64,000 bases of DNA from positions 4,879,412-4,943,411 of the forward strand of contig NZ_JAUSZX010000001.1 of assembly GCF_030818015.1 (NCBI RefSeq), read 5' to 3'. The stretch is from Arthrobacter globiformis (GTDB taxonomy: Bacteria > Actinomycetota > Actinomycetes > Actinomycetales > Micrococcaceae). Below are positions 4,672-26,882 of the stretch, piece by piece. Within the stretch, counting starts at the first letter, position 1; each line of letters opens with the position of its first letter. The notes beneath the pieces were generated by a model that was not told where the DNA came from, ran no database searches, and saw only the letters and a program-made list of their open reading frames with translations. A program made the position numbers and the translations under genes.

Positions 4672-6147
4672 CTATTGGACCGTGGCCGTGAGGCGGGCTA
4701 CGTTGTCGACATATCTTGCCGCGAGCGGCCGGCCCATCCAGTCCTCGAGCTTCAGCTCATGGGAGATGTCCCGGTAGGTGTCCTCCACCGCACGCATGCT
4801 GTTGACGATGTCCGCGCCCAGCAGCATCACCGAAACCTCCAGGTTCAGGGAGAAGGAGCGCATGTCCATGTTGCTGGAGCCCAGGACGGCCACTTCGTCG
4901 TCGATGGTGAAGTGCTTGGCATGGAGCACGAACGGGGCCTTGTAGAGGTAGATCCGGACACCGGCCCGCAGCAGGGCCTCGTAGTAGGACTGCTGTGCAT
5001 GGTGGACCAGGAACTGGTCGCCCTTCTCGGAGACGAACAGTTCCACGTCCACGCCGCGCTGCGCCGCAGTGGTGATGGCGTAAAGCAGGGAATCGTCCGG
5101 CACGAAGTAGGGGCTGCACACCGAAATCCGATGCTGCGCCGAGTAGATCAGCGTGTTGAAGAGCCGGAGGTTGTTCTCCGTGGTGAAGCCGGGGCCGCTC
5201 GGCACCACCTGGGCCGTGACGTCGCCCGGCGACGGCTCGGCAGCCAGCTGCAGCTGGTCCTCGAGTGACTCGTCCGTCTCGCTGAGCCAGTCGGTGGCAA
5301 ACACGACATTGAGGGTGGGAACGATCGGACCCCGGAGGCAGGCCATCAGCTCGATCCATTCGCGGCCGGCCTTGCGGTGCTTGGGGTTGTTGTAGGAGGG
5401 CTCGATCAGGTTCTGCGATCCCGTGAACGCGACTTCGCCGTCGATCACCATGATCTTGCGGTGGTTGCGCAGATCCGGCCGGCGCCACTGGCCGTGGATG
5501 GGCAGCAGCGGCAGCATCCGCCGCCACTGGATGCGGCTGGCCCTGAGCCGTTTCAGGAGCTTGTTGTACCCCTTCACGCGCAGGGTTCCGATGTGGTCAA
5601 ACAGCACGCGGACCTGGACGCCGCGGTCCGCCGCCTCCTCGAGGGCCGTGAGGAGGTCGTCCGTGACGTGGTCCGTGCTCATGATGTAGAACTCGGCGTT
5701 GACGAAGCGCTCGGCCTTCCGCACGGCCTCGGCCATGGCGCGGATGGAGTCCGGGTAGCCGGGAATCAGCTCCACATGGTTGCCGTCCACGAGTGGAATC
5801 GACCCGAGCCGGCGGTTGAGTTCGGCCGCGGACAGGACCCATTCGGGGCCGGAATACTCACTGGCGACGTCGGAAAGCGCCGAACTGCCGGCACGGACCC
5901 GCTCGTTGACCAGCTGCTGCTGCTCGGTGCGGCGGCGCGACAGCCTGAAGTTGCCGAAGAGCAGGAAGAGGATCAGTCCAAGGGCCGGCACGAAGAAGAT
6001 GCCCAGCAGCCAGGCCATGGCCGTGGTGGGCCGCCGGTTGCCCGGGATGATGCCCACGGCCAGCACCCTGATGACCAGATCCACTCCGCTGAGCAGCAGG
6101 ATCACCCAGGCCGGCAGTGTTTCCGCTAGCGGAAATGGCCACAACAC
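4672..6147 (-). CDS. cls: cardiolipin synthase (phospholipase D family)
   Basis: 491 residues: two N-terminal membrane segments (about 12-35 and 42-62), then two phospholipase-D catalytic halves, each with an HKD motif (NHRKIMVID with GSQN, and HAKHFTIDD with GSSNMD). Cardiolipin synthase joins two phosphatidylglycerol molecules, or PG with a CDP-diacylglycerol-type donor, at the cytoplasmic membrane. The length and layout match bacterial ClsA. The start is GTG at 6147. The gene lies on the minus strand between pabB and pabC, converging with pabB across only 8 bp and with no obvious terminator. Confidence 0.9.
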   Translation of the reverse strand: MLWPFPLAETLPAWVILLLSGVDLVIRVLAVGIIPGNRRPTTAMAWLLGIFFVPALGLILFLLFGNFRLSRRRTEQQQLVNERVRAGSSALSDVASEYSGPEWVLSAAELNRRLGSIPLVDGNHVELIPGYPDSIRAMAEAVRKAERFVNAEFYIMSTDHVTDDLLTALEEAADRGVQVRVLFDHIGTLRVKGYNKLLKRLRASRIQWRRMLPLLPIHGQWRRPDLRNHRKIMVIDGEVAFTGSQNLIEPSYNNPKHRKAGREWIELMACLRGPIVPTLNVVFATDWLSETDESLEDQLQLAAEPSPGDVTAQVVPSGPGFTTENNLRLFNTLIYSAQHRISVCSPYFVPDDSLLYAITTAAQRGVDVELFVSEKGDQFLVHHAQQSYYEALLRAGVRIYLYKAPFVLHAKHFTIDDEVAVLGSSNMDMRSFSLNLEVSVMLLGADIVNSMRAVEDTYRDISHELKLEDWMGRPLAARYVDNVARLTATVQ

Positions 6148-6240
6148 AGTTGAAACCCCCGTTATTTCTTACCCTCGCAGCCATTCCGTATGGAGCGGTG
6201 AAGCCAGCCTATAGGGCACCGGCCGCACTAAGCTTGAGGC

Positions 6241-7173
6241 ATGACGTCTCGTACCTCCCACACAGTGCTGGTGTTCCTGGATCCGGACTATGAATACGGC
6301 CGGCTTGCCGACCCCGAAAAGCCGCAGCTGATGGCCACTGACCTGGGCGCCACCCGCGGTGACGGGGTGTTCGAGTCCATGCTCGCCGTCGCCGGCCACA
6401 CGCGGAAGATCCAGGCGCACCTGGACCGGCTGGCCCGCTCGGCCCAAGCCCTCGACCTTGAGATTCCGGGGCCGGACGACTGGCGCCGTGCGGTCGGGAC
6501 GGGCGTCGCGGCGTTCCGCTCCGACAACCCCGCCTCCTCCCCGGAGCTGGACGAGGCCGTGGTCAAGCTCATCGTCACCCGCGGCGTCGAGGGCGCCTCC
6601 GCCCCCACCTGCTGGGTGCAGGTGTCCCCGGTGGCAGCCGCCGGCCGGCGCCAGCGCGAGACCGGCATCGACGTCATCCTCCTTGACCGCGGCTACGACA
6701 GCGATGCAGCCGAGCGGGCCCCCTGGCTGCTGCTCGGCGCCAAGACCCTCTCCTATGCGGTGAACATGGCCGCGCTGCGCCATGCCCACAAACAGGGGGC
6801 GGATGATGTCATCTTCACGTCCTCGGACGGACTCGTGCTGGAGGGCCCCACGTCCACCGTGCTGCTGGCGAACGTGGAGAAGAATGACGGCGGAACAACA
6901 GTCAAGCGCCTCGTCACGCCACAGCTGGACAGCGGCATTCTCCCGGGAACCTCACAGGGCGCCCTCTTCGCCGCCGCGAAGGCCGCCGGCTGGGAACTGG
7001 GCTACGGCCCGCTGAAACCCCAGGACCTGGCGGACGCCGATGCCGTCTGGCTGATTTCCAGCATCCGCCTCCTGGCCCCGGTCAATCACATTGACGGGCG
7101 CGAAATCGGCACGCCGGCGCTCCGCAAGCAGCTGACCGCCGAGCTGAACGAACTGTTTGCCGGCATCGAGTAG
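6241..7173 (+). CDS. pabC: aminodeoxychorismate lyase (class IV PLP enzyme)
   Basis: 310 residues of the branched-chain-aminotransferase/4-amino-4-deoxychorismate-lyase fold. It shows RGDGVFES near the N-terminus, the PLP-lysine region LLGAKTLSYAVNM, and the conserved loop LEGPTSTVLLAN. It would convert aminodeoxychorismate to p-aminobenzoate and pyruvate, the step after PabB at 2612. A D-amino-acid or branched-chain aminotransferase is the alternative, but the pabB neighbourhood favours PabC. There is no Shine-Dalgarno sequence. TAAGCT at 6229-6234 lies 6 nt before the ATG, so the mRNA looks leaderless. Confidence 0.82.
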   Translation: MTSRTSHTVLVFLDPDYEYGRLADPEKPQLMATDLGATRGDGVFESMLAVAGHTRKIQAHLDRLARSAQALDLEIPGPDDWRRAVGTGVAAFRSDNPASSPELDEAVVKLIVTRGVEGASAPTCWVQVSPVAAAGRRQRETGIDVILLDRGYDSDAAERAPWLLLGAKTLSYAVNMAALRHAHKQGADDVIFTSSDGLVLEGPTSTVLLANVEKNDGGTTVKRLVTPQLDSGILPGTSQGALFAAAKAAGWELGYGPLKPQDLADADAVWLISSIRLLAPVNHIDGREIGTPALRKQLTAELNELFAGIE

Positions 7174-7182
7174 TAACGAAAA

Positions 7183-7218
7183 GGCACCGTTCGAAAAAAT
7201 GCAGGACAAGACGGTGCC
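7183..7218. terminator. inverted repeat after pabC, possible weak terminator
   Basis: GGCACCGT (7183-7190) and ACGGTGCC (7211-7218) form a perfect 8-bp stem with a 20-nt loop, starting 10 nt after the pabC stop. There is no U-run downstream, so termination efficiency is doubtful. It could equally be an mRNA 3' stabilising stem. Confidence 0.35.
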
Positions 7219-7325
7219 CCGCGTTGTAGTCTTCTTCCACGGCCAACTGCCCGTACCCGCAGGGGTACTGACACGCGGTCTGGTTCCGGGCTCAGCCGGA
7301 ATGAGTACGTATAAAGGAATAGCCG

Positions 7326-8423
7326 ATGTCTTGGGACGAGAACTCCCTTCCCGCATTGACGGATTCACTGCCCACGGGCCTGGGGGCCAAGGCAGTGCTG
7401 CCGGCGGACATAAGGGAAATGACTGTGCGCTGGCAAGCCCACCAGATCATCACTGAACTGCTCGCCGAATCAGATCCGGCCAGTGCGTGGACCCGCGCCC
7501 AGCTGCGCGCCCTGGTCGAGGCCCATCCGGATAATCCCGAACACGTGCTGCTCGAGCACCTCACCGCCACCACCGAGCTGGCTAACGCCGAAAACGGCGC
7601 CGTCCCGGTGAGCGAGCAATCCCAGGGCGTGGCTGCGCCTGAGCCTGTGCCCTTCACCCGGCGCAGCAGGAACCGGATTGAAGCCATCCTTGCCGACAAG
7701 ATGCTGATGACCGCGTTCCAGCCGATCCGCCAGCTTCCGGAAGGCCATGTGATCGGGGTCGAGGCCCTGACCCGTTTCGTCAGCGACGACGGTGCCAGCG
7801 CGGACCACTGGTTCAATGAGGCAGAGTCCGTCGGGCTGGGCACCGACCTTGAACTCGCGGCACTGCACCGGGCCCTTTCTGCGGCGCAGGCCGTGCCCGA
7901 TCACATGTTCATCGCCCTGAACCTGACACCGGCCACGTGTGCGGACCCAAGGATCCCGGGGCTGCTGGAACATTCCCAGCTGGCCATGGACCGGATTGTC
8001 ATCGACCTCAATGGCGCGGTCCCCCTCGAGCTGTACCCGACGCTGACGGCCGCTATCGCCCCGCTGCGGCGCCGCGGACTGCGGATCGCCGTGAACGGCG
8101 CCGAGGTCGGCTTCACGTCCATGGATCAGGTCCTTGAACTTCACCCGGACGTCATCAAACTGGACCGGAGTTTCATCGCAGGCATCGAGGACTCCCCGGG
8201 CCAGCGCCTGAGGGCCGCGGCCATGGCCGAACTCGCCCGGTACATTGATGCCGCGATCGGTGCCCAGGGCGTGGAGACGCCGGAGGAACTCGAGGCCGTG
8301 ACCGAACTTGGCATGGCCGCTGCGCAGGGCTACCTGCTGGGCAGGCCCTCCGTTCACCCGCTGGACTGGAATGGCTGGATCCGTTCCGAAACTGAGACGG
8401 CCACCAGCGGCCCGGCCTCCTGA
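7326..8423 (+). CDS. degenerate EAL-domain protein
   Basis: 365 residues: about 110 residues with no recognised domain, then an EAL domain from about 115 to 360. The signature Glu is present (GVEALTRF, ~146), as are the NLT, KLDRSFI, GVET and QGYLLGRP blocks. However, the metal-binding DDFG position reads NGAEVG, and the Glu-bearing strand reads IDLNGA. I infer that it has probably lost c-di-GMP phosphodiesterase activity and may instead bind c-di-GMP or a partner. An AAAGGA ribosome-binding site precedes the ATG. No GGDEF domain is attached. It ends 16 bp from the convergent CysK-like gene. Confidence 0.8.
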   Translation: MSWDENSLPALTDSLPTGLGAKAVLPADIREMTVRWQAHQIITELLAESDPASAWTRAQLRALVEAHPDNPEHVLLEHLTATTELANAENGAVPVSEQSQGVAAPEPVPFTRRSRNRIEAILADKMLMTAFQPIRQLPEGHVIGVEALTRFVSDDGASADHWFNEAESVGLGTDLELAALHRALSAAQAVPDHMFIALNLTPATCADPRIPGLLEHSQLAMDRIVIDLNGAVPLELYPTLTAAIAPLRRRGLRIAVNGAEVGFTSMDQVLELHPDVIKLDRSFIAGIEDSPGQRLRAAAMAELARYIDAAIGAQGVETPEELEAVTELGMAAAQGYLLGRPSVHPLDWNGWIRSETETATSGPAS

Positions 8424-8439
8424 CGGGTTCCCGACGGCG

Positions 8440-9489
8440 CTAGTCCTCCGCGAGATCTGCGGCCAGGCGGATGTGGTTGTCCGCCAGCCACACAGGATTG
8501 AAGGCCTTGCTCTGGTAGTTGCTGCCCGTGTCCGGGGCGATCGCCACCACCACCGACCCGTGCGGCGCCGCCCTGGCCACCCGGAGCGCTGCCGCCACCG
8601 TCAGGCCCGAGGACGGCCCGAGGGACAGGCCCTCGTCGTTGACCAGCCGGTGCAGCGTGGTGTACACCTCGTCGTTCGGAATCCGCAGGAACCGGTCCAG
8701 CAGGCCGCGGTCGAAGACTTTCGGCCAGTCGGGTTTGGGCCAGGAGTTACCCACGCCGTCCACCAGGATCTGGCCCGGATGCCCGCCGCTGTAAACGGAG
8801 CCGTACGGGTCCGCGCCGATCACCTCCACATGCCCGCCGGACTTCTCCTTGAGGTACCGCCCGTTCCCGCTGATGGTGCCGCCGGTGCCCACTCCCGCGA
8901 CGAAGTGCGTCACCCGGCCCGCCGTCTGCTCCCAGATCTCCGGCGCGGTCCCGTCATAGTGCGCCTGGGGGTTGGCCGGGTTGTCGAACTGCAGCGGACG
9001 CCAAGCGCCGGGAATTTCGGCCGTGATCCGGGCCGCGACCGCCCGCGCGTTCTCCGGTGAATCCGACGGCGCGCTCCAGTCCGTGAACACCACCCGCGCC
9101 CCGTAGCGGTTGAGGGCCTCCAGCTTCTCCGATGAAATGGAGTCACCCGTGACCACCACCACCGGATGGCCGGTCAGCGCCCCGATCAGTGCGAGCCCGA
9201 TTCCGGTGTTCCCGGAGGTGCTTTCCACGATGGTCCCGCCGGGCTGCAGCTCGCCGCTGCGCTCTGCCGCCCGGACCATGCTCAACGCGGTCCTGTCCTT
9301 GATGGAACCGCCGGGGTTCTCCGATTCGAGTTTGACGAAGACAGTGCTCCCCAGCCCGCGGCTCAGCACGTCCAGTGGCACCAGCGGAGTGTTCCCCACC
9401 CGCGCCAGCACCGCACCGGCGTCCACGGCCGGATCCAGTATGGGCGCCACATGCCTTGGCTGGCCGCCGCTTCCTGTCACGGTGGTCAT
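8440..9489 (-). CDS. CysK/CBS-family PLP enzyme (cysteine synthase-like)
   Basis: 349 residues of fold-type II PLP enzymes. The PLP lysine is K64 in GSIKDRTA, the substrate loop is STSGNTG, and the phosphate-binding loop is GVGTGGTISG. Cysteine synthase family members catalyse beta-replacement on O-acetylserine or beta-elimination, and this one is cysteine-synthase or cystathionine-beta-synthase-like without CBS domains. It is the last gene of a coupled operon: its ATG overlaps the stop of the HAL-family gene (ATGA). That context argues for a dedicated catabolic or salvage reaction rather than housekeeping cysteine synthesis, but this is inference. Confidence 0.82.
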   Translation of the reverse strand: MTTVTGSGGQPRHVAPILDPAVDAGAVLARVGNTPLVPLDVLSRGLGSTVFVKLESENPGGSIKDRTALSMVRAAERSGELQPGGTIVESTSGNTGIGLALIGALTGHPVVVVTGDSISSEKLEALNRYGARVVFTDWSAPSDSPENARAVAARITAEIPGAWRPLQFDNPANPQAHYDGTAPEIWEQTAGRVTHFVAGVGTGGTISGNGRYLKEKSGGHVEVIGADPYGSVYSGGHPGQILVDGVGNSWPKPDWPKVFDRGLLDRFLRIPNDEVYTTLHRLVNDEGLSLGPSSGLTVAAALRVARAAPHGSVVVAIAPDTGSNYQSKAFNPVWLADNHIRLAADLAED

Positions 9490-11144
9490 GAGTCTCCTCC
9501 CCCATCACCCGGACTGCGGTCATTCGGCCCGCCCTCATCCGGTACTCGTAATTCGGGCAGTGCTGCCAGCAGGTTCCCCAGGGCAGCACGCGCACTGTCA
9601 ACCAGCACGGCCGCCGGCAGCTGCCCGGCCAGCAGCTCCGACAGCCGCGCCACTACGGCGCCGGTGCCGGCTCCGAGCTGCCGGATCTCCGCCTCCCGCA
9701 GATCCGTGCCCTGCGCCTCCGCCAACAGGTAGGAGGCCGTCAACGCCTCAATGGTGAGGAGCTTGGCCGCGGCCTCCACCGAGCGCTCCAGCTGCTGGAG
9801 GGCCAGCGGGGCCAGCGTGGAGTGGTCCTCCACGTCCGCGGACAGGGTGGGGGCACCGAGGGTGGCAGGCGACGCCAGGAACTTCAGCTCGGCCAGCAGG
9901 CCCGCGGCGGAGTACCAGAGCAGTCCCGGCAGGTCTTCGGACGCGAGCGGCGTGCCGGCCCGGGCCGCCTCGAGGTTGAGCTGCCGGATGAGGCGCTGCG
10001 GCGGATAAAGCTTGGCGATCCGCCGCTCGCTGCTGATTCCGACATGGGCGAGTCCAAGCCGCAGCGCCTCGAACGCCAGGGCCAGCTGCATGGGCTGGAA
10101 GTTTCCGCCGGACACCATCCGGCCCGACGCTATGTCCGTGAGGGGGTTGTCTCCCCTGCCGTTGAGCTCCACTTCGAGCGCCCCCGCCAGGGCCGTGACC
10201 TGGGCCCGGAACGCACCGTGCGTCTGCGGCGCGGCGCGGAAGGACAGGGCGTCCTGGACCGACACCTGCCGCCGCGGGTCCTCCAGCCAGCCGCCGCGCA
10301 CCAGGCGCCGGACGTTGGCCGCCGAGACGCGCTGGCCGTCCACTGCCTTGGCCGACTGCACGGCTGGCGAGAACGGGCTGAGGTTCCCGCCGCCGTCGTA
10401 CCTGGCAGTGGCCTCAAGCGACAGCGCCAGCGCAGTGTCCGCCAGATCGGCGAGCCACCGGATGCGGCGGAGCTCCAGCACACCGGCGCCGATCGAATAG
10501 GAGTTGGCGCTGACCAGCGCCAGGGCCTCGCCCGGCGCAAGGACCACCGGTTCCAGCCCCGCGGCGGTGAGCGCTTCCGCGCCGTCCTGCAGGCCGCCGT
10601 CAGGGGCAAGCGCCTGTCCCTCACCGATGGCGACGGCGGCAACCGCCGCCAGCTGGGTGAGGTCCGACGAACCGACAGACCCGTCGCGCGGTACGGCCGG
10701 CACCACACCCCTGTTGAGCAGCTCGGCATAGAAGCGGGCAGTCTCCGGACGCACCCCCGAGCCTCCACGGGTGAACCCGATGAGCCTTGCCAGGATGAGG
10801 GCGCGGACTTCATTCCGGTCCAGCAGCGCGCCGACGCCGCTGTGGTGGTAGCGCACCACCTGGAGCTGGAAGTCGAGGATGGATTCCTGCTCCACGGCAG
10901 TGTCGCGGCCGGAGCCGAGCAGGGTGTTCAGGCCGTAGACGCGGTGCCCGGAATCGATGGCCGCCTGCACCACCTCGCGGGAGAGGCCCACGAGCTCGAG
11001 GGCCTCGGCGCTGAGGACCACTTCCACTGCGGGATCGGCGGCCACCGCCGCCACGTCGTCGGCACGGATGTGGGCGGTGCCGATCAGGAACGTGCCGCGC
11101 CGGACCCCCGGCATCAGTCCGTCGTGCCCCCTGGCCCCTGCCAT
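9486..11144 (-). CDS. HAL/PAL-superfamily protein lacking the MIO-forming Ala-Ser-Gly
   Basis: 552 residues aligning by eye with histidine/phenylalanine ammonia-lyases: YGLNT at 70-74, EL(N)GRGDNPL and SGGNF in the core. The MIO prosthetic group forms from Ala-Ser-Gly in GSVGASGDL. Here the loop reads GSVGSSDL (155-162), one residue shorter and without the triad. The QDPYSLR motif is QDALSFR, losing the catalytic Tyr. The fold is kept but the chemistry must differ. MIO-independent relatives exist, for example ergothionase, which eliminates trimethylamine. The ATG at 11144 is 4 nt after the monooxygenase stop. An in-frame extension upstream of it covers that gene and is rejected. Confidence 0.75.
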   Translation of the reverse strand: MAGARGHDGLMPGVRRGTFLIGTAHIRADDVAAVAADPAVEVVLSAEALELVGLSREVVQAAIDSGHRVYGLNTLLGSGRDTAVEQESILDFQLQVVRYHHSGVGALLDRNEVRALILARLIGFTRGGSGVRPETARFYAELLNRGVVPAVPRDGSVGSSDLTQLAAVAAVAIGEGQALAPDGGLQDGAEALTAAGLEPVVLAPGEALALVSANSYSIGAGVLELRRIRWLADLADTALALSLEATARYDGGGNLSPFSPAVQSAKAVDGQRVSAANVRRLVRGGWLEDPRRQVSVQDALSFRAAPQTHGAFRAQVTALAGALEVELNGRGDNPLTDIASGRMVSGGNFQPMQLALAFEALRLGLAHVGISSERRIAKLYPPQRLIRQLNLEAARAGTPLASEDLPGLLWYSAAGLLAELKFLASPATLGAPTLSADVEDHSTLAPLALQQLERSVEAAAKLLTIEALTASYLLAEAQGTDLREAEIRQLGAGTGAVVARLSELLAGQLPAAVLVDSARAALGNLLAALPELRVPDEGGPNDRSPGDGGGDS

Positions 11145-11148
11145 GACG

Positions 11149-12477
11149 CTAAAAGTCCAGCAGGTTCCGGCGGAGGCCGCCGTCGCCGTAGCTCGTCCGC
11201 AGCAGTCCCCGCCTCCGAAGCGCCGGCGCCAGTCTGTCCAGCACGCCGTGGATCGTGGCCGGATCCACGAAGCCGGAGAAGAGGAACCCGTCGCCGCCCA
11301 CTGCCGCCCCGGTTTCCTCGAGGTAGTCGGCGATTTCATCGGCGGTGCCGATGATGCTGTCGCCGGCGCCGCCGCTGCGGGCCTGCAGGATCTGCCGCAG
11401 GGTGGAACCTGGCGGCGCGGCCTTGGAGAAGTGCTCCAGCGTGCCCTGGTTGCTGTTGGTGCTGAGCTCGGGGAGGGGCGCGTCAAGGTCGAACTGCTTG
11501 AAGTCGATGACGGACAGGTAGGAGATGGAGTTGAGCTGGCTGTCGATCTCCCGCTGCGTGAGCTCCCGGCGGGCAGCCCGCAGCTCCTCGGCTTCGGCCC
11601 GGGAACCGGTCACCGTGGGTTTCAGGACGAACAGCACCTTGACGTCGTCGGGGTTCCGGCCGGCCCCGGCGGCCTCCGCGCGGATGGAGTCCCGGTACGC
11701 CTTCATGCCGTCCACACCTCGGGCAAGGGCAATGGCAACATCCGCGTTCGCGCCGGCGAAGGCCTTGCCCCGCGGGGATGCCCCGGCCTGCACCAGCACG
11801 GGTTCCTCCGGCAGCGGTGCCGTGTTCAGCGGTCCCCGGACCTTGAAGAACTCCCCGTTGTGGTGGATCGGCCGGACCTTGGTGTGGTCCGCGAAGATGC
11901 CTGCCCGGGTGTCCTCAAGGATGGCGTCCGGTTCCCAGCTGCGCCAAAGCTTGCGCACAACGTCCACGAACTCCTCGGCCTTCTCGTAGCGGAGGTCGTG
12001 CTCGATCTGCTGGTCCAGCCCGTAGTTCTGCGCGGCAAGGTCGCTGCCCGAGGTCACCACGTTCCAGCCCAGCTGCCCGTTGGAGAAGTGCTGCAGCGTG
12101 GCCAGCAGCCGGGCCGCGGTGAAAGGCGGATAGAAAGAGGCGCTGATGGTGGGAACAATGCCGAGGTGCTCCGTGGCGGAGAGCAGGTACGGCACCAGGG
12201 CCAGCGGATCGTGCTTCGGTGCAAAGGACGCCTGCGCCAGCGAGACCTCCGCGCTGCCGCCGTAGGTGTCGGGGACGGTGAGCGAGTCCTCGATGATGAA
12301 CAGGTCCAGCCCGGCCCGCTCGAACTCCCGGACCGCATGCTGGTAGGGGGCGGGCTTCTTCCAGTCATAGCCGATTCCATAGCCGGGCGTCCCCCAGCCC
12401 TGAACCCCGAAGCCATGGCCCACAAACCATCCAAAGTGCAGCATGGGAGTCACTGTATTCGCGGTCGAATCATTCAC
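11149..12477 (-). CDS. NtaA/SnaA/DszA-type flavin-dependent monooxygenase
   Basis: 442 residues of the luciferase-like TIM-barrel family, in the long NtaA/SnaA/DszA/CmoJ branch that uses FMNH2 supplied by a separate reductase. Motifs include FIIEDS, GIVPTISASFYPPF, GQLGWNVVTS and PVLVQAGASPRGK. Family members cleave C-N or C-S bonds in chelators, dibenzothiophene sulfone or S-substituted cysteines. It is the first gene of the three-gene minus-strand operon and is divergent from the SAM-IV-controlled methionine operon. No flavin reductase is encoded nearby. The substrate is not predictable. Sulfur or quaternary-amine compounds are reasonable guesses from the neighbours. Confidence 0.82.
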   Translation of the reverse strand: MNDSTANTVTPMLHFGWFVGHGFGVQGWGTPGYGIGYDWKKPAPYQHAVREFERAGLDLFIIEDSLTVPDTYGGSAEVSLAQASFAPKHDPLALVPYLLSATEHLGIVPTISASFYPPFTAARLLATLQHFSNGQLGWNVVTSGSDLAAQNYGLDQQIEHDLRYEKAEEFVDVVRKLWRSWEPDAILEDTRAGIFADHTKVRPIHHNGEFFKVRGPLNTAPLPEEPVLVQAGASPRGKAFAGANADVAIALARGVDGMKAYRDSIRAEAAGAGRNPDDVKVLFVLKPTVTGSRAEAEELRAARRELTQREIDSQLNSISYLSVIDFKQFDLDAPLPELSTNSNQGTLEHFSKAAPPGSTLRQILQARSGGAGDSIIGTADEIADYLEETGAAVGGDGFLFSGFVDPATIHGVLDRLAPALRRRGLLRTSYGDGGLRRNLLDF

Positions 12478-12605
12478 TGCGGCCTGGTTTCATCCGGCGT
12501 TACGGCGGGTCATCTCCCGTCATTATCCTCCCGGCCACAGGCTTTGTAACCGCAGCGCGGCGACTGCTGTGCCCAGCGGTGACTGGATGCGTTACGGAAG
12601 ATGAC

Positions 12606-12633
12606 GACGACGGCGGTGCGCACCGCCGTCGTC
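12606..12633. repeat. 28-bp perfect palindrome in the divergent intergenic region
   Basis: Positions 12606-12633 are a perfect palindrome centred on GTGCGCAC (14-bp arms, no spacer). As RNA it would fold as a very stable GC hairpin with a GCGC tetraloop. It lies between the start of the monooxygenase operon (12477) and the SAM-IV aptamer (from ~12648). A terminator is not needed between divergent operons unless it stops spurious transcription, so an operator or a leader-RNA stem are alternatives. Confidence 0.6.
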
Positions 12634-12644
12634 AGTGTTACGTT

Positions 12645-12738
12645 TCTGGGGAGTAATGAGTACCGGCATTAAGCCCTGACTGGCCGGTCGGCAACCCTCC
12701 TTCCACGGCGGGGTGCCTCAGGTGAATACTCGGCATAT
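12645..12738 (+). promoter_or_regulatory. SAM-IV riboswitch
   Basis: The leader of the DUF1737-rhodanese-metZ operon carries the SAM-IV aptamer pattern known from actinobacteria: TGAGT, then GCC...GGTCGGCAACCCTCC, GGGGTGCC and GGTGA in the right order. The closing helix P1 pairs GAGTA (12651-12655) with TACTC (12727-12731). SAM-IV aptamers sense S-adenosylmethionine and lower expression of methionine or sulfur genes. No intrinsic terminator follows. CTCCTT inside the aptamer (12697-12702) is complementary to the AAGGAG ribosome-binding site (12767-12772), so control at translation is plausible. That last point is inference. Confidence 0.85.
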
Positions 12739-12779
12739 CGACCACTTCGAGCTGCAAGCGTGAGAAAAGGAGATCCGTC

Positions 12780-13088
12780 GTGTCAGACGCACCCGCCGTT
12801 GCAACGCTGCCGTCCCAGCAGGATAAACCTGAGGAAAAGCTGTCCTACCGCCTGATCACGGGGCCGGACGACCGTGCGTTCTGTGAGCGCATCTCGGCTG
12901 CCCTGGCCGAGGGATACGTGCTGCACGGCAGCCCTGCCGCCACCTTCAACGGCACCAGCGTCATCGTGGCCCAGGCCGTCATCCTGCCTGCCGCCATCGC
13001 CACCGCGGATGCCGCCGTCGCCACCGCCGTGGACCGGCTGGATTCGGACGATGACCTCAGTGAAGAAGCCTACGAGGGCCACGCATGA
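12780..13088 (+). CDS. DUF1737-domain protein
   Basis: A 102-residue small protein. Residues ~22-70 (YRLITGPDD..FC..ISAALAEGY.LHGSPA) match the DUF1737 pattern, a short domain of unknown function. The N- and C-terminal ends are probably disordered, with an acidic tail. It is the first gene behind the SAM-IV riboswitch, with a strong AAAAGGAG ribosome-binding site before a GTG start. Its stop overlaps the rhodanese start (ATGA). Position suggests a helper in sulfur transfer to homoserine, but no function is established. Confidence 0.8.
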   Translation: MSDAPAVATLPSQQDKPEEKLSYRLITGPDDRAFCERISAALAEGYVLHGSPAATFNGTSVIVAQAVILPAAIATADAAVATAVDRLDSDDDLSEEAYEGHA

Positions 13089-13495
13089 GCTACGCTGGAG
13101 ACCTCACCCCGCAGGACGCGTGGGCCAAGCTCGAGGAGGGCGCCATCCTGGTGGATGTGCGCACCGAGGGCGAATGGGCGCACATCGGCATTCCGGACAC
13201 CAAGGCCACGGAGAATGATCCCCTGTTTATCCAGTGGACCTTTCCCGGCGGCATTCCCAACCCCGACTTCGTCGAGCAGCTGAAGCAGCAGGCGCCTGAA
13301 GACACCCGGGTGGAGCTGCTGTTCCTGTGCCGCTCCGGCCAGCGCTCCATCGCCGCCGCCATCGCCGCCACACAGGCCGGATTCACCGCCTACAACGTCC
13401 TCGAAGGCTTCGAGGGCGAGCCCGACCGCTACGGTGAGCGCACCGTGAACGGCTGGAAGAACCGCGGCCTGCCGACGAACCTGGGAAAGAACTAA
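13085..13495 (+). CDS. rhodanese-like sulfurtransferase
   Basis: 136 residues, a single rhodanese domain. DVRTEGEW is near the N-terminus and the active-site loop is CRSGQRS with Cys82, the residue that carries the persulfide. It is cytoplasmic, with no signal peptide. It is translationally coupled to the DUF1737 gene upstream (ATGA), and metZ starts one base after its stop. Within this SAM-regulated operon it probably delivers or handles sulfane sulfur for homocysteine synthesis. Confidence 0.88.
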   Translation: MSYAGDLTPQDAWAKLEEGAILVDVRTEGEWAHIGIPDTKATENDPLFIQWTFPGGIPNPDFVEQLKQQAPEDTRVELLFLCRSGQRSIAAAIAATQAGFTAYNVLEGFEGEPDRYGERTVNGWKNRGLPTNLGKN

Positions 13496-13496
13496 G

Positions 13497-14705
13497 TTGA
13501 CCTTTAACCACGACGCCGCCGGCTGGAGCCCCGATACGCAGGCCGTCCGCGGCGGGCTTGACCGCACCAATTTCCAAGAGACCACCGAGCCCGTCTTCCT
13601 GAACTCCGGGTTTGTTTACGAGTCCGCCGCTGCCGCCGAGCGCGCCTTCACCGGCGAGGACGAACGCTTCGTCTACTCGCGCTACGGCAACCCGTCCGTG
13701 GCCACCTTCCAGGAACGTCTCCGGCTGCTCGAAGGCACGGAGGCGTGCTTTGCGACGGCGTCCGGCATGTCCGCTGTGTTCACGGCCCTTGGCGCCCTGC
13801 TCGGGGCCGGGGACCGGGTGGTCGCCAGCCGATCCCTGTTCGGCTCCTGCTTCGTGATCCTCAACGAAATCCTGCCGCGCTGGGGCGTGGAGACCGTATT
13901 CGTGGACGGTCCGGACCTCGAGCAGTGGCGCGCGGCCCTCTCGGTGCCCACCACGGCCGTCTTCTTCGAATCCCCGTCCAACCCGATGCAGGAAATCGTG
14001 GACATCGCCGCGGTCAGCGACCTCGCCCACGCCGCCGGCGCCAAGGTGGTGGCGGACAACGTCTTCGCCACCCCGCTGCTCCAGCGCTGCGGAGACCTCG
14101 GCGCTGACGTGATCGTCTACTCCGGAACCAAGCACATCGACGGCCAGGGCCGGGTGATGGGCGGCGCCATCCTGGGCACCAAGGAATTCATCGACGGGCC
14201 GGTCAAGCAGCTCATGCGCCACACCGGCCCGGCGCTCTCCGCGTTCAACGCCTGGGTGCTCACCAAAGGCCTGGAGACCATGGCGCTCCGCGTGAACCAC
14301 TCCTCCGCCACGGCCCTGCGCCTGGCCGAATGGCTGGAGACCCAGCCCGCCGTCAACTGGGTGAAGTACCCGCTGCTCAAGTCGCACCCGCAGTTCGAAC
14401 TGGCGGCCAAGCAGATGAAGGCCGGCGGCACCGTCCTCACGCTGGAGCTTGCGACGACGGCAGGACAGTCGGGCAAGGAAGCTGCCTTCGCGCTGCTGGA
14501 CGCCCTGAAGATCATCGACATCTCCAACAACCTGGGCGACGCGAAGTCACTGATCACCCATCCCGCCACCACGACGCACCGGGCCATGGGGCCGGAAGGA
14601 CGCGCCGCGATCGGGCTGAGCGATGGAGTGGTGCGGCTGTCCGTGGGCCTGGAAGATGCGGATGACCTCATCGCGGACCTGGAGCAGGCGATCAAGCAGA
14701 TCTGA
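13497..14705 (+). CDS. metZ: O-succinylhomoserine sulfhydrylase
   Basis: 402 residues of the Cys/Met-metabolism PLP family. It shows the YGNPSVATFQ substrate loop, ATASGMSAV, and the PLP lysine in SGTKHIDGQGR (~K212). The HIDGQGR form is typical of MetZ, which makes homocysteine directly from O-succinylhomoserine and sulfide. MetY or a cystathionine synthase are alternatives. The start codon is TTG, one base after the rhodanese stop. It is last in the operon controlled by the SAM-IV riboswitch, consistent with feedback by S-adenosylmethionine. Confidence 0.87.
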   Translation: MTFNHDAAGWSPDTQAVRGGLDRTNFQETTEPVFLNSGFVYESAAAAERAFTGEDERFVYSRYGNPSVATFQERLRLLEGTEACFATASGMSAVFTALGALLGAGDRVVASRSLFGSCFVILNEILPRWGVETVFVDGPDLEQWRAALSVPTTAVFFESPSNPMQEIVDIAAVSDLAHAAGAKVVADNVFATPLLQRCGDLGADVIVYSGTKHIDGQGRVMGGAILGTKEFIDGPVKQLMRHTGPALSAFNAWVLTKGLETMALRVNHSSATALRLAEWLETQPAVNWVKYPLLKSHPQFELAAKQMKAGGTVLTLELATTAGQSGKEAAFALLDALKIIDISNNLGDAKSLITHPATTTHRAMGPEGRAAIGLSDGVVRLSVGLEDADDLIADLEQAIKQI

Positions 14706-26617: not shown

Positions 26618-26655
26618 CGACTGCCGGCGGCTGGGCCACCTGCTGCCGGGCACTC

Positions 26656-26738
26656 TGAGAACTCGACTCCCTTGCGCCGGTACTAGCCGGATCAGGTTCG
26701 AGGGTCTGCGGCTGTCCGCACTCTCAGCGCCCATCCGC
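26656..26738 (-). promoter_or_regulatory. TPP (thi-box) riboswitch
   Basis: On the minus strand the leader contains the conserved blocks of the TPP aptamer in order: GCTGAGAGTG, then GACCCTCGAACCTGATCC and the closing CCGGCGCAAGGGA. It binds thiamine pyrophosphate and normally lowers expression of thiamine synthesis and transport genes. It precedes ykoE by about 80 nt, and no intrinsic terminator is seen in that interval. Confidence 0.93.
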
Positions 26739-26882
26739 GGTTGCGCTGGCAGTTGCCTTTGCATCCCGACGGCGGCGCTCCCCTGTCGTGATAAATCTGC
26801 CCTTGTGGGCTGGTCCAGTTTACACCTCGGCGACCCCGAAAACCCCGGGGCGCCGTCACAAACCGGAAGCCTTCCTGCGCTG

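Follow-up and report, generated by a model that had tools for sequence, protein, structure and literature searches.

A conserved three-gene unit in Arthrobacter globiformis with a histidine ammonia-lyase-fold protein that lacks the MIO tripeptide: a candidate catabolic or sulfur salvage route

The final 64 kb of contig C1 in the 5.09 Mb genome of Arthrobacter globiformis (the whole stretch of DNA analysed here, hereafter the window) carry a unit of three minus-strand genes, running from position 12477 to 8440, which encode a monooxygenase of the NtaA/DmoA family, a protein with the fold of histidine ammonia-lyase (HAL; below, the lyase) and a pyridoxal phosphate (PLP) enzyme resembling cysteine synthase (CysK) and cystathionine beta-synthase (CBS). 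HAL and phenylalanine ammonia-lyase (PAL) enzymes are the textbook family of 4-methylidene-imidazole-5-one (MIO). To judge from its sequence, the lyase cannot form MIO in the way HAL forms it, and its gene, which is under purifying selection, appears to encode a maintained, altered enzyme, because the altered loop is conserved, six residues are invariant and the ratio of nonsynonymous to synonymous substitution rates (dN/dS) is low. For the unit as a whole we tentatively favour, at somewhat less than an even chance, a three-step catabolic or salvage pathway, in which a MIO-independent elimination would be followed by oxygenative C-S cleavage and by capture of the sulfur.

A HAL-fold protein without the MIO tripeptide

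The lyase matches the Pfam family PF00221 with 361 bits and scores 295.4 bits against the hutH equivalog of NCBIfam, below the cut-off of 539.15. The motifs YGLNT, DNPL and SGGNF are retained, alongside the strings GSVGSSDL and QDALSFR. In the phmmer alignment to Pseudomonas putida HAL, GSVG-SS-DL of the lyase faces GSVGASGDL; the gap falls within the MIO tripeptide, and the Ala-Ser-Gly (or Cys-Ser-Gly or Thr-Ser-Gly) that MIO requires is absent. A first-pass annotation, made from the letters alone, had listed the three retained motifs, the replacement of Ala-Ser-Gly by GSVGSSDL and the lack of the Tyr of QDPYSLR. These readings agree with the sequence and its alignment to HAL: Leu stands in QDALSFR at the position of HAL Tyr280, and no Ala-Ser-Gly displaced from its usual place is found at the MIO site, where the loop is one residue shorter than in HAL. 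HAL Arg283 is retained as Arg303, and the alignment puts Ser at the position of HAL Asn195.

The loop reads GSVG(SS|SA)DL in all 120 homologs listed of 385 (E<=1e-3), 111 with SS and nine with SA, and QD(A/P/S)LSFR is likewise present in 120 of these 120. A 54-row alignment with identities down to 39% shows no variation at Tyr70, His100, Gln297, Arg303, Phe349 or Glu439. Tyr70 occupies the position of HAL Tyr53 and Glu439 that of HAL Glu414, and His100 lies at what we take to be the ring-selectivity position of HAL and tyrosine ammonia-lyase (TAL; His83/His89). Over 12 comparisons (three genes in four relatives, Nei-Gojobori) dN/dS ranges from 0.056 to 0.158, and for the lyase from 0.097 to 0.158. 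Loss or decay in a single strain is ruled out by these values and by the distribution of the loop.

Two other explanations concern the lyase itself. On the one hand, it could be an ordinary ammonia-lyase or aminomutase that builds MIO from Ser-Ser-Asp or another odd tripeptide, as its PF00221 match and HAL-like fold would allow; the loop, however, lacks one residue and the two that remain vary, unlike an MIO triad, so that this explanation is barely credible and a displaced MIO is likewise unlikely. On the other hand, the loss of MIO and the changes at the positions of HAL Tyr280 and Asn195 would suit a pseudoenzyme, a non-catalytic regulatory or scaffold subunit that is structural for its two partners. 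We consider this highly improbable in view of the residues that stay invariant across the 54 sequences, the dN/dS of the lyase, and the example of ergothionase, which also lacks MIO and is active (PMC13405746). By the account of that 2026 paper, few microbes have a definitively identified ergothionase.

MIO-less relatives, phylogeny and structure

All genome samples were drawn within one phylum. The nine distant MIO-less lyases found in the phylum sample all possess a two-residue loop. With one of them as a second query, the two-residue loop was present in 118 of the 120 relatives listed of 2219 (one had another string and one was unmatched), and QD(P/A)(L/I)SFR in 102 of the same 120, with four near variants and 14 unmatched. 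The loop pairs of the relatives comprise AG, TG, AA, MA, SG and others. Outside the phylum, MIO-less forms are represented by proteins from Azospirillum (L135) and Agrobacterium (L133) and by the ergothionase of T. denticola.

A 25-row tree separates the MIO-less rows from five HALs (support 93/93) and joins the window clade to the wider MIO-less clade with 99/98. The rows with QDxLSFR, including ergothionase, are grouped with 89/90, under the confidence mark of the tool. Ergothionase (6s7j), a long branch and the sole characterised ergothionase in the tree, pairs with the Azospirillum protein, again below the confidence mark (86/90). An earlier tree agrees overall, with 82/52 for the place of ergothionase. 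The placement of ergothionase and of one further paralog (L003) is unsure because both are long branches. By sequence relationship the lyase is no isolated oddity: it forms a branch within a larger clade of MIO-less proteins that carry ammonia-lyase annotations.

The AlphaFold2 model of the lyase has a mean predicted local distance difference test (pLDDT) score of 87.7. Its top structure match by Z is ergothionase 6s7j with 40.6 (root mean square deviation 2.4 over 487 residues, 25% identity), followed by near-ties: tyrosine aminomutase with 39.8, effectively a tie, and HALs with 38-39. The kinship to MIO-less ergothionase proposed in the first-pass annotation is thus upheld: by the (tied) top Z row, the short loop and QDxLSFR, ergothionase is the nearest known functional parallel.

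The distant MIO-less relatives (L109-L117) show no common neighbourhood theme in an inspection by eye of translated open reading frames (ORFs) with some family searches. Three arrangements seen by eye may be recorded. In two loci of one actinobacterial genus (L109, 3685-7476, and L116, to 7180) the MIO-less lyase follows a gene resembling ribulose-phosphate 3-epimerase, and in the former locus it also follows a glutamate decarboxylase-like gene. At L028 (5325-9536) a MIO-less lyase with loop AA is convergent to aromatic meta-cleavage-like genes (dioxygenase, hydratase, aldolase).

Organization and conservation of the three-gene unit

The three genes are tightly joined, as the first-pass annotation had stated: four nucleotides (CGTC) separate the stop of the monooxygenase gene from the ATG of the lyase, and the lyase stop overlaps the start of the CysK-like gene in ATGA. 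The lyase start is the in-frame ATG at 11144; a longer ORF of 666 amino acids would begin inside the upstream monooxygenase gene.

Among 149 Micrococcaceae genomes, the own genome included, lyase orthologs occur in nine (58-100% identity) and monooxygenase orthologs in the same nine (83-100%). A wide gap separates these from the next-best matches, at 45% for the lyase and 43% for the monooxygenase, and the CysK-like gene directly follows the lyase in all eight of the other ortholog-bearing genomes. Thirty-seven named loci, partly overlapping with the 149-genome sample, come from Arthrobacter, Paenarthrobacter, Psychromicrobium and one Renibacterium metagenome-assembled genome (MAG). With an intact gene defined as one frame covering at least 85% of the query, the full array is intact and in order in 32 of the 37. 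The five others are L088 (rearranged), L090 (contig end), L098, L103 and L107. The monooxygenase is present in 36 of the 37 loci, its copy being cut by the contig end in L090; L103 lacks it within 13.5 kb of sequence. Immediately downstream of the lyase, 36 loci carry the CysK-like gene, whereas L088 has it divergently on the other side; in L098, a Paenarthrobacter MAG, it is broken, its match in one frame being confined to residues 26-240. An unbroken lyase frame occurs in 36 loci, and in L107 (Arthrobacter sp. OVS8) the gene falls into three frames.

The spacing of the genes is conserved as well: in all 33 loci where it could be measured, the distance between the monooxygenase stop and an in-frame lyase start is -1 to +5 nt, and an in-frame start of the CysK-like gene lies at -4 in 32 of 35. 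The Psychromicrobium and Renibacterium MAG copies are located elsewhere, behind genes that by eye resemble those of trehalose synthesis, and therefore the triplet has been moved or kept as a block. In a phylum sample of 396 genomes, two, one of them the own genome, carry orthologs of both lyase and monooxygenase; nine others have a distant MIO-less lyase (E<=1e-90) but nothing that matches the monooxygenase at E<=1e-85. A further four have a 42-48% monooxygenase relative and lack a lyase match. The suggestion that the three genes act as a unit and co-occur consequently stands as far as the carriers are concerned, although the unit is not general in Micrococcaceae.

On the other strand begins an operon in the order SAM-IV (S-adenosylmethionine) riboswitch, 102-aa ORF, rhodanese-like ORF and metZ (Table 1), which substantiates the SAM-regulated methionine operon described earlier as divergent from the unit. 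The rhodanese label of the middle ORF was given by eye; the sole NCBIfam match of that ORF is a weak MoeB hit.

Table 1. Coordinates of the three-gene unit, its diagnostic codons and neighbouring features in the window
Feature	Position	Strand	Basis
Gene 1: NtaA/DmoA-family monooxygenase dependent on flavin mononucleotide (FMN), 442 aa, GTG start	11149..12477	-	TIGR03860, PF00296
Gene 2: MIO-less HAL-fold lyase, 552 aa	9486..11144	-	PF00221
Gene 3: CysK/CBS-like PLP enzyme, 349 aa	8440..9489	-	PF00291
GSVGSSDL codons, residues 155-162 (MIO loop, one residue short)	10659..10682	-	direct reading, gap relative to HAL
QDALSFR codons, residues 297-303	10236..10256	-	direct reading
SAM-IV riboswitch of the divergent metZ operon, outside the unit	12652..12766	+	RF00634, 94 bits (gathering 38)
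metZ, O-succinylhomoserine sulfhydrylase, neighbour	13497..14705	+	NF005870, 754 bits (cut-off 618)

Several further features surround the unit. A GC-rich near-palindrome, GACGACGGCGGTGCGCACCGCCGTCGTC, lies at 12600-12640 between the divergent transcription units; it may be a terminator or an operator, and several Arthrobacter loci retain it in altered form. Inspection by eye also shows a conserved stretch containing GTAAC, together with a GC-rich palindrome, upstream of gene 1 as a candidate shared operator. An ORF at 7326-8423 (+), convergent to the CysK-like gene, carries EAL-type motifs by eye, and a TPP (thiamine pyrophosphate) riboswitch was found at 26651-26794 (-), with 58.6 bits against a gathering score of 54.3. 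PADLOC gave no match for any of the three unit proteins, so that an anti-phage role is unsupported.

Partner enzymes and sulfur context

The product of gene 1 belongs to the NtaA/DmoA family, with 371.5 bits for TIGR03860, over the curated cut-off of 279.7, and 134 bits for the Pfam family PF00296. Its top PDB matches are dimethyl-sulfide monooxygenase (6ak1, 259 bits) and then DszA (5tlc, 247 bits); YtnJ structures (216 bits), RutA and riboflavin lyase are also listed. In a comparison with the SfnG and SsuD models for dimethylsulfone and alkanesulfonate monooxygenases, the DmoA equivalog being absent from the listing, it remains under both equivalog cut-offs (66 of 383 and 59 of 518 bits). 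The product of gene 3 is a PLP enzyme of fold-type II (PF00291, 245 bits against a gathering score of 35), which carries the Lys of GSIKDR and an STSGNTG loop and has the CBS Rv1077 as its closest PDB match (293 bits). It passes no NCBIfam cut-off among the 25 models listed of 33: CBS is the best model with 346.5 of 510 bits, and cysK (270 of 351) and cysM (266.5 of 394) are likewise below.

The sulfur link of the unit is circumstantial: it rests on the family of the monooxygenase, on the CysK/CBS-like partner and on the neighbouring metZ. Of the 37 loci, 33 have metZ in the fetched stretch, at close range in some and roughly 2 kb more distant in others. In L103 the metZ genes are separated from the lyase by a gene of the sulfate permease family (PF00916, 262 bits, below the sulP cut-off of NCBIfam), which is encoded on the opposite strand. 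The surroundings of L088 hold one further NtaA/DmoA and one MsnO8-type gene, both over their cut-offs, and a partial third luciferase-like monooxygenase. A 43% relative of the monooxygenase adjoins a gene resembling O-acetylhomoserine sulfhydrylase at L118, both under curated cut-offs; the other 42-48% relatives have no consistent neighbourhood by eye.

Betaine-type transporters beside MIO-less relatives

Three other MIO-less HAL-fold proteins adjoin genes of betaine-type ATP-binding cassette (ABC) transporters, whose best models are ProV for the ATPase and OsmF for the binding protein: L029 in the own genome (297 and 87 bits, respectively), L117 in another actinobacterium (329 and 183) and L133 on the Agrobacterium tumefaciens plasmid pAt15-1187-1-2a1 (284 and 85). 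A betaine reading of these transporters is likely yet uncertain, because, with cut-offs of 326.6 (ProV) and 400 (OsmF), the ATPase of L117 alone passes. A leaving group able to depart without MIO would agree with this coincidence of MIO loss and a betaine-type importer.

The L029 cluster (5869-13295; contig C1, about 2677575-2685000) comprises an IclR-like gene (by eye), four transporter genes (ATPase and binding protein searched), a second urocanase copy (895 bits, over the hutU cut-off) and the lyase, with loop GGIGTADL and QDPYCLR; it has the look of a cluster for the breakdown of compounds of the hercynine or ergothioneine type. Matches to its lyase at E<=1e-70 occur in seven of the 149 Micrococcaceae genomes. 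The two lyases show no sign of mutual dependence, since just the own genome carries both. At L117 a urocanase beside the lyase is cut by the contig end (278 bits). At L133 (4434-12361) the HAL-fold protein, in which the MIO motif is wholly absent (GSVGYLIATSH), stands between the transporter and genes annotated as CoA-transferase, dehydrogenase and hydratase, possibly an aromatic-betaine degradation operon. All three clusters resemble the window unit in a HAL-fold enzyme without the MIO loop. They differ in carrying a transporter and urocanase or CoA-type genes, and neither an NtaA/DmoA monooxygenase nor CysK was seen in the stretches read. For the window lyase the argument for a betaine would accordingly be one from relatives, the window unit itself having no importer.

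These clusters bear on a competing explanation, in which the lyase would be MIO-independent and act on a sulfur-free aromatic betaine (such as hercynine, or a tyrosine- or tryptophan-type compound), the monooxygenase would open or oxidise the product, and the CysK-like enzyme would carry out a beta-replacement without sulfide. The betaine-type ABC genes of the relatives do adjoin urocanase (L029, L117) or CoA-transferase, dehydrogenase and hydratase genes (L133) rather than sulfur genes, and RutA and riboflavin lyase, which are related to NtaA/DmoA, cleave C-N bonds. The CysK/CBS-like partner and the sulfur neighbours argue in the opposite direction, as does the lack of such a downstream pathway in the unit, and we regard a sulfur-free substrate as unlikely.

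Less probable still is a MIO-independent C-S lyase, from whose substrate, a sulfur-containing acid such as a thioether of the S-(carboxyalkyl)cysteine type, a thiolate or sulfonium would leave the alpha carbon, with the monooxygenase oxidising the same class of compounds. YtnJ structures are among the monooxygenase matches, and YtnJ/YxeK-type enzymes of Bacillus subtilis attack S-(2-succino)cysteine oxidatively; a thiolate is moreover a good leaving group, and CysK-like enzymes handle such thiols. The transporter-linked relatives, however, point to betaines, His100 suggests a ring substrate, and we know of no MIO-less HAL-fold enzyme with a C-S lyase reaction, which counts against this explanation.

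Discussion

From the residues, the missing MIO tripeptide and the gene unit, which are observed, we infer each reaction of the three-step pathway as follows. In the first step, the lyase would perform an ergothionase-type elimination that yields an acrylate, a chemistry fairly well supported by the comparisons above. With the roles of base, carboxylate and amine pocket as assigned to HAL and TAL residues, Tyr70 would take the beta-hydrogen, Arg303 hold the carboxylate and Glu439 lie in the amine pocket. The leaving group would be one that can depart without MIO; trimethylamine, released from an amino acid trimethylated at its alpha nitrogen (a betaine), is the likeliest candidate, and His100 would favour an imidazole-like or other polar ring. 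In the second step, the NtaA/DmoA-type enzyme, using FMNH2 and O2, would cleave either the product or the substrate at a C-S (or ring C-N) bond. In the third step, the CysK/CBS-like enzyme would put the freed sulfur into cysteine or an S-substituted cysteine. The lead substrate class would be a thio-histidine betaine: ergothioneine, or its S-methyl or sulfonate form. The first-pass annotation had proposed a sulfur-containing or betaine-type substrate; the betaine is the likelier part of that proposal, given the three MIO-less relatives beside betaine-family-like ABC genes, while the case for sulfur in the substrate is circumstantial.

A number of observations weigh against the proposed pathway. 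In the alignment, Arg80 and Tyr411 of the lyase take two Lys positions of ergothionase, Lys64 and Lys384 in T. denticola, which are presumably its catalytic lysines. The lyase is not a proven ergothionase and is not called one here, because these lysines are replaced and because the best tree, in which ergothionase is a long branch of unsure place, does not pair the two proteins. The Foldseek E-value, too, puts P. putida HAL above ergothionase. No transporter, urocanase or flavin reductase is found among the three genes of the unit, the Azospirillum protein (L135) has the loop and the motif with no betaine transporter among the ORFs searched, and the L029 lyase, with its betaine-type transporter and second urocanase, may already serve histidine-type betaines in the same genome. 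With regard to sulfur, the neighbourhoods of the wider clade show no common sulfur genes by eye, and metZ is linked to the unit through a single conserved block of synteny, which was not seen at the transposed copies: the stretches retrieved for Psychromicrobium and the Renibacterium MAG contain no metZ. Relatives of the monooxygenase cut C-N bonds as well, and the substrates of the monooxygenase and the CysK-like enzyme cannot be told from sequence. Finally, there is no EgtD match in the own genome, a search with a weak control in which none of 14 control genomes passed the cut-off; ergothioneine, if used, would thus come from outside.

A more specific version of the pathway is doubtful. In this version the operon would be an undescribed oxygen-dependent salvage of thio-betaine sulfur: trimethylamine would be stripped, the thio-acrylate would undergo a DmoA-like C-S cut, and a dedicated CBS-type enzyme would synthesize cysteine, with the lyase representing a large MIO-independent family whose members in soil actinobacteria currently bear the names of histidine or aromatic ammonia-lyases. 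No description of the three-gene operon was found in the literature searched, most subscription papers lying outside that search; in the available part of PMC3903478, MIO-less wording concerns only a mutant.

The results are of interest in several respects. The PF00221 proteins found here carry ammonia-lyase names in their annotation, and with a MIO-less clade of the size indicated by the second query many of these labels are probably wrong. The operon, with its three coupled genes in named Arthrobacter and Paenarthrobacter strains, offers a handle on the function of MIO-less enzymes. Should the substrate be ergothioneine or a relative, an aerobic, monooxygenase-based route would be added to the soil turnover of this fungal and actinobacterial thiol.

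Comparison with known systems

HutH, represented by the copy in the own genome (L001/L030), a protein with Cys-Ser-Gly that adjoins a hutU copy elsewhere, and by that of P. putida (1b8f), shares with the lyase PF00221, the fold, and motifs of the YG(L/I)NT, DNP, GNF and EDH type. The lyase differs from HutH in lacking Ala-Ser-Gly, and hence MIO, as well as Tyr280, and in scoring under the hutH equivalog cut-off.

The ergothionase of T. denticola (6s7j/6s7q) shares the HAL fold, a short loop that aligns without gaps and QDxLSFR, which reads QDPLSFR in 6s7j, where IEDH is also present. Unlike the aligned HALs, both lyase and ergothionase have Ser in place of HAL Asn195 and a two-residue deletion before QD. 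The two proteins are only 25% identical, and a urocanase-like hydratase is not among the three genes of the unit.

Gene 1 resembles the NtaA/DmoA (SnaA/DszA) family, including 6ak1, DszA and YtnJ, in exceeding the TIGR03860 cut-off, and differs in forming an orthologous group of its own, with at least 83% identity inside and at most 48% outside in the sampled genomes. Gene 3 shares with the Rv1077-type CysK/CBS catalytic domain the PLP fold, the Lys and the STSGNTG loop; compared with cystathionine beta-synthase, it matches PF00291 alone and has no CBS (Bateman) domains.

NCBIfam holds models for thiourocanate hydratase and S-methyl-thiourocanate hydratase. The available part of PMC13405746 describes a thiourocanate desulfhydrase of anaerobic gut bacteria that releases H2S, and cites, by a title in its reference list, an ergothioneine sulfonate catabolic pathway; release of sulfur following the ergothionase step is thus already known in other forms. 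The known ergothioneine routes have the same overall logic as the proposed unit, in that sulfur is freed after a MIO-less lyase. They employ a hydratase or desulfhydrase, in place of which the unit encodes a monooxygenase of the luciferase-like type and a partner resembling CysK and CBS.

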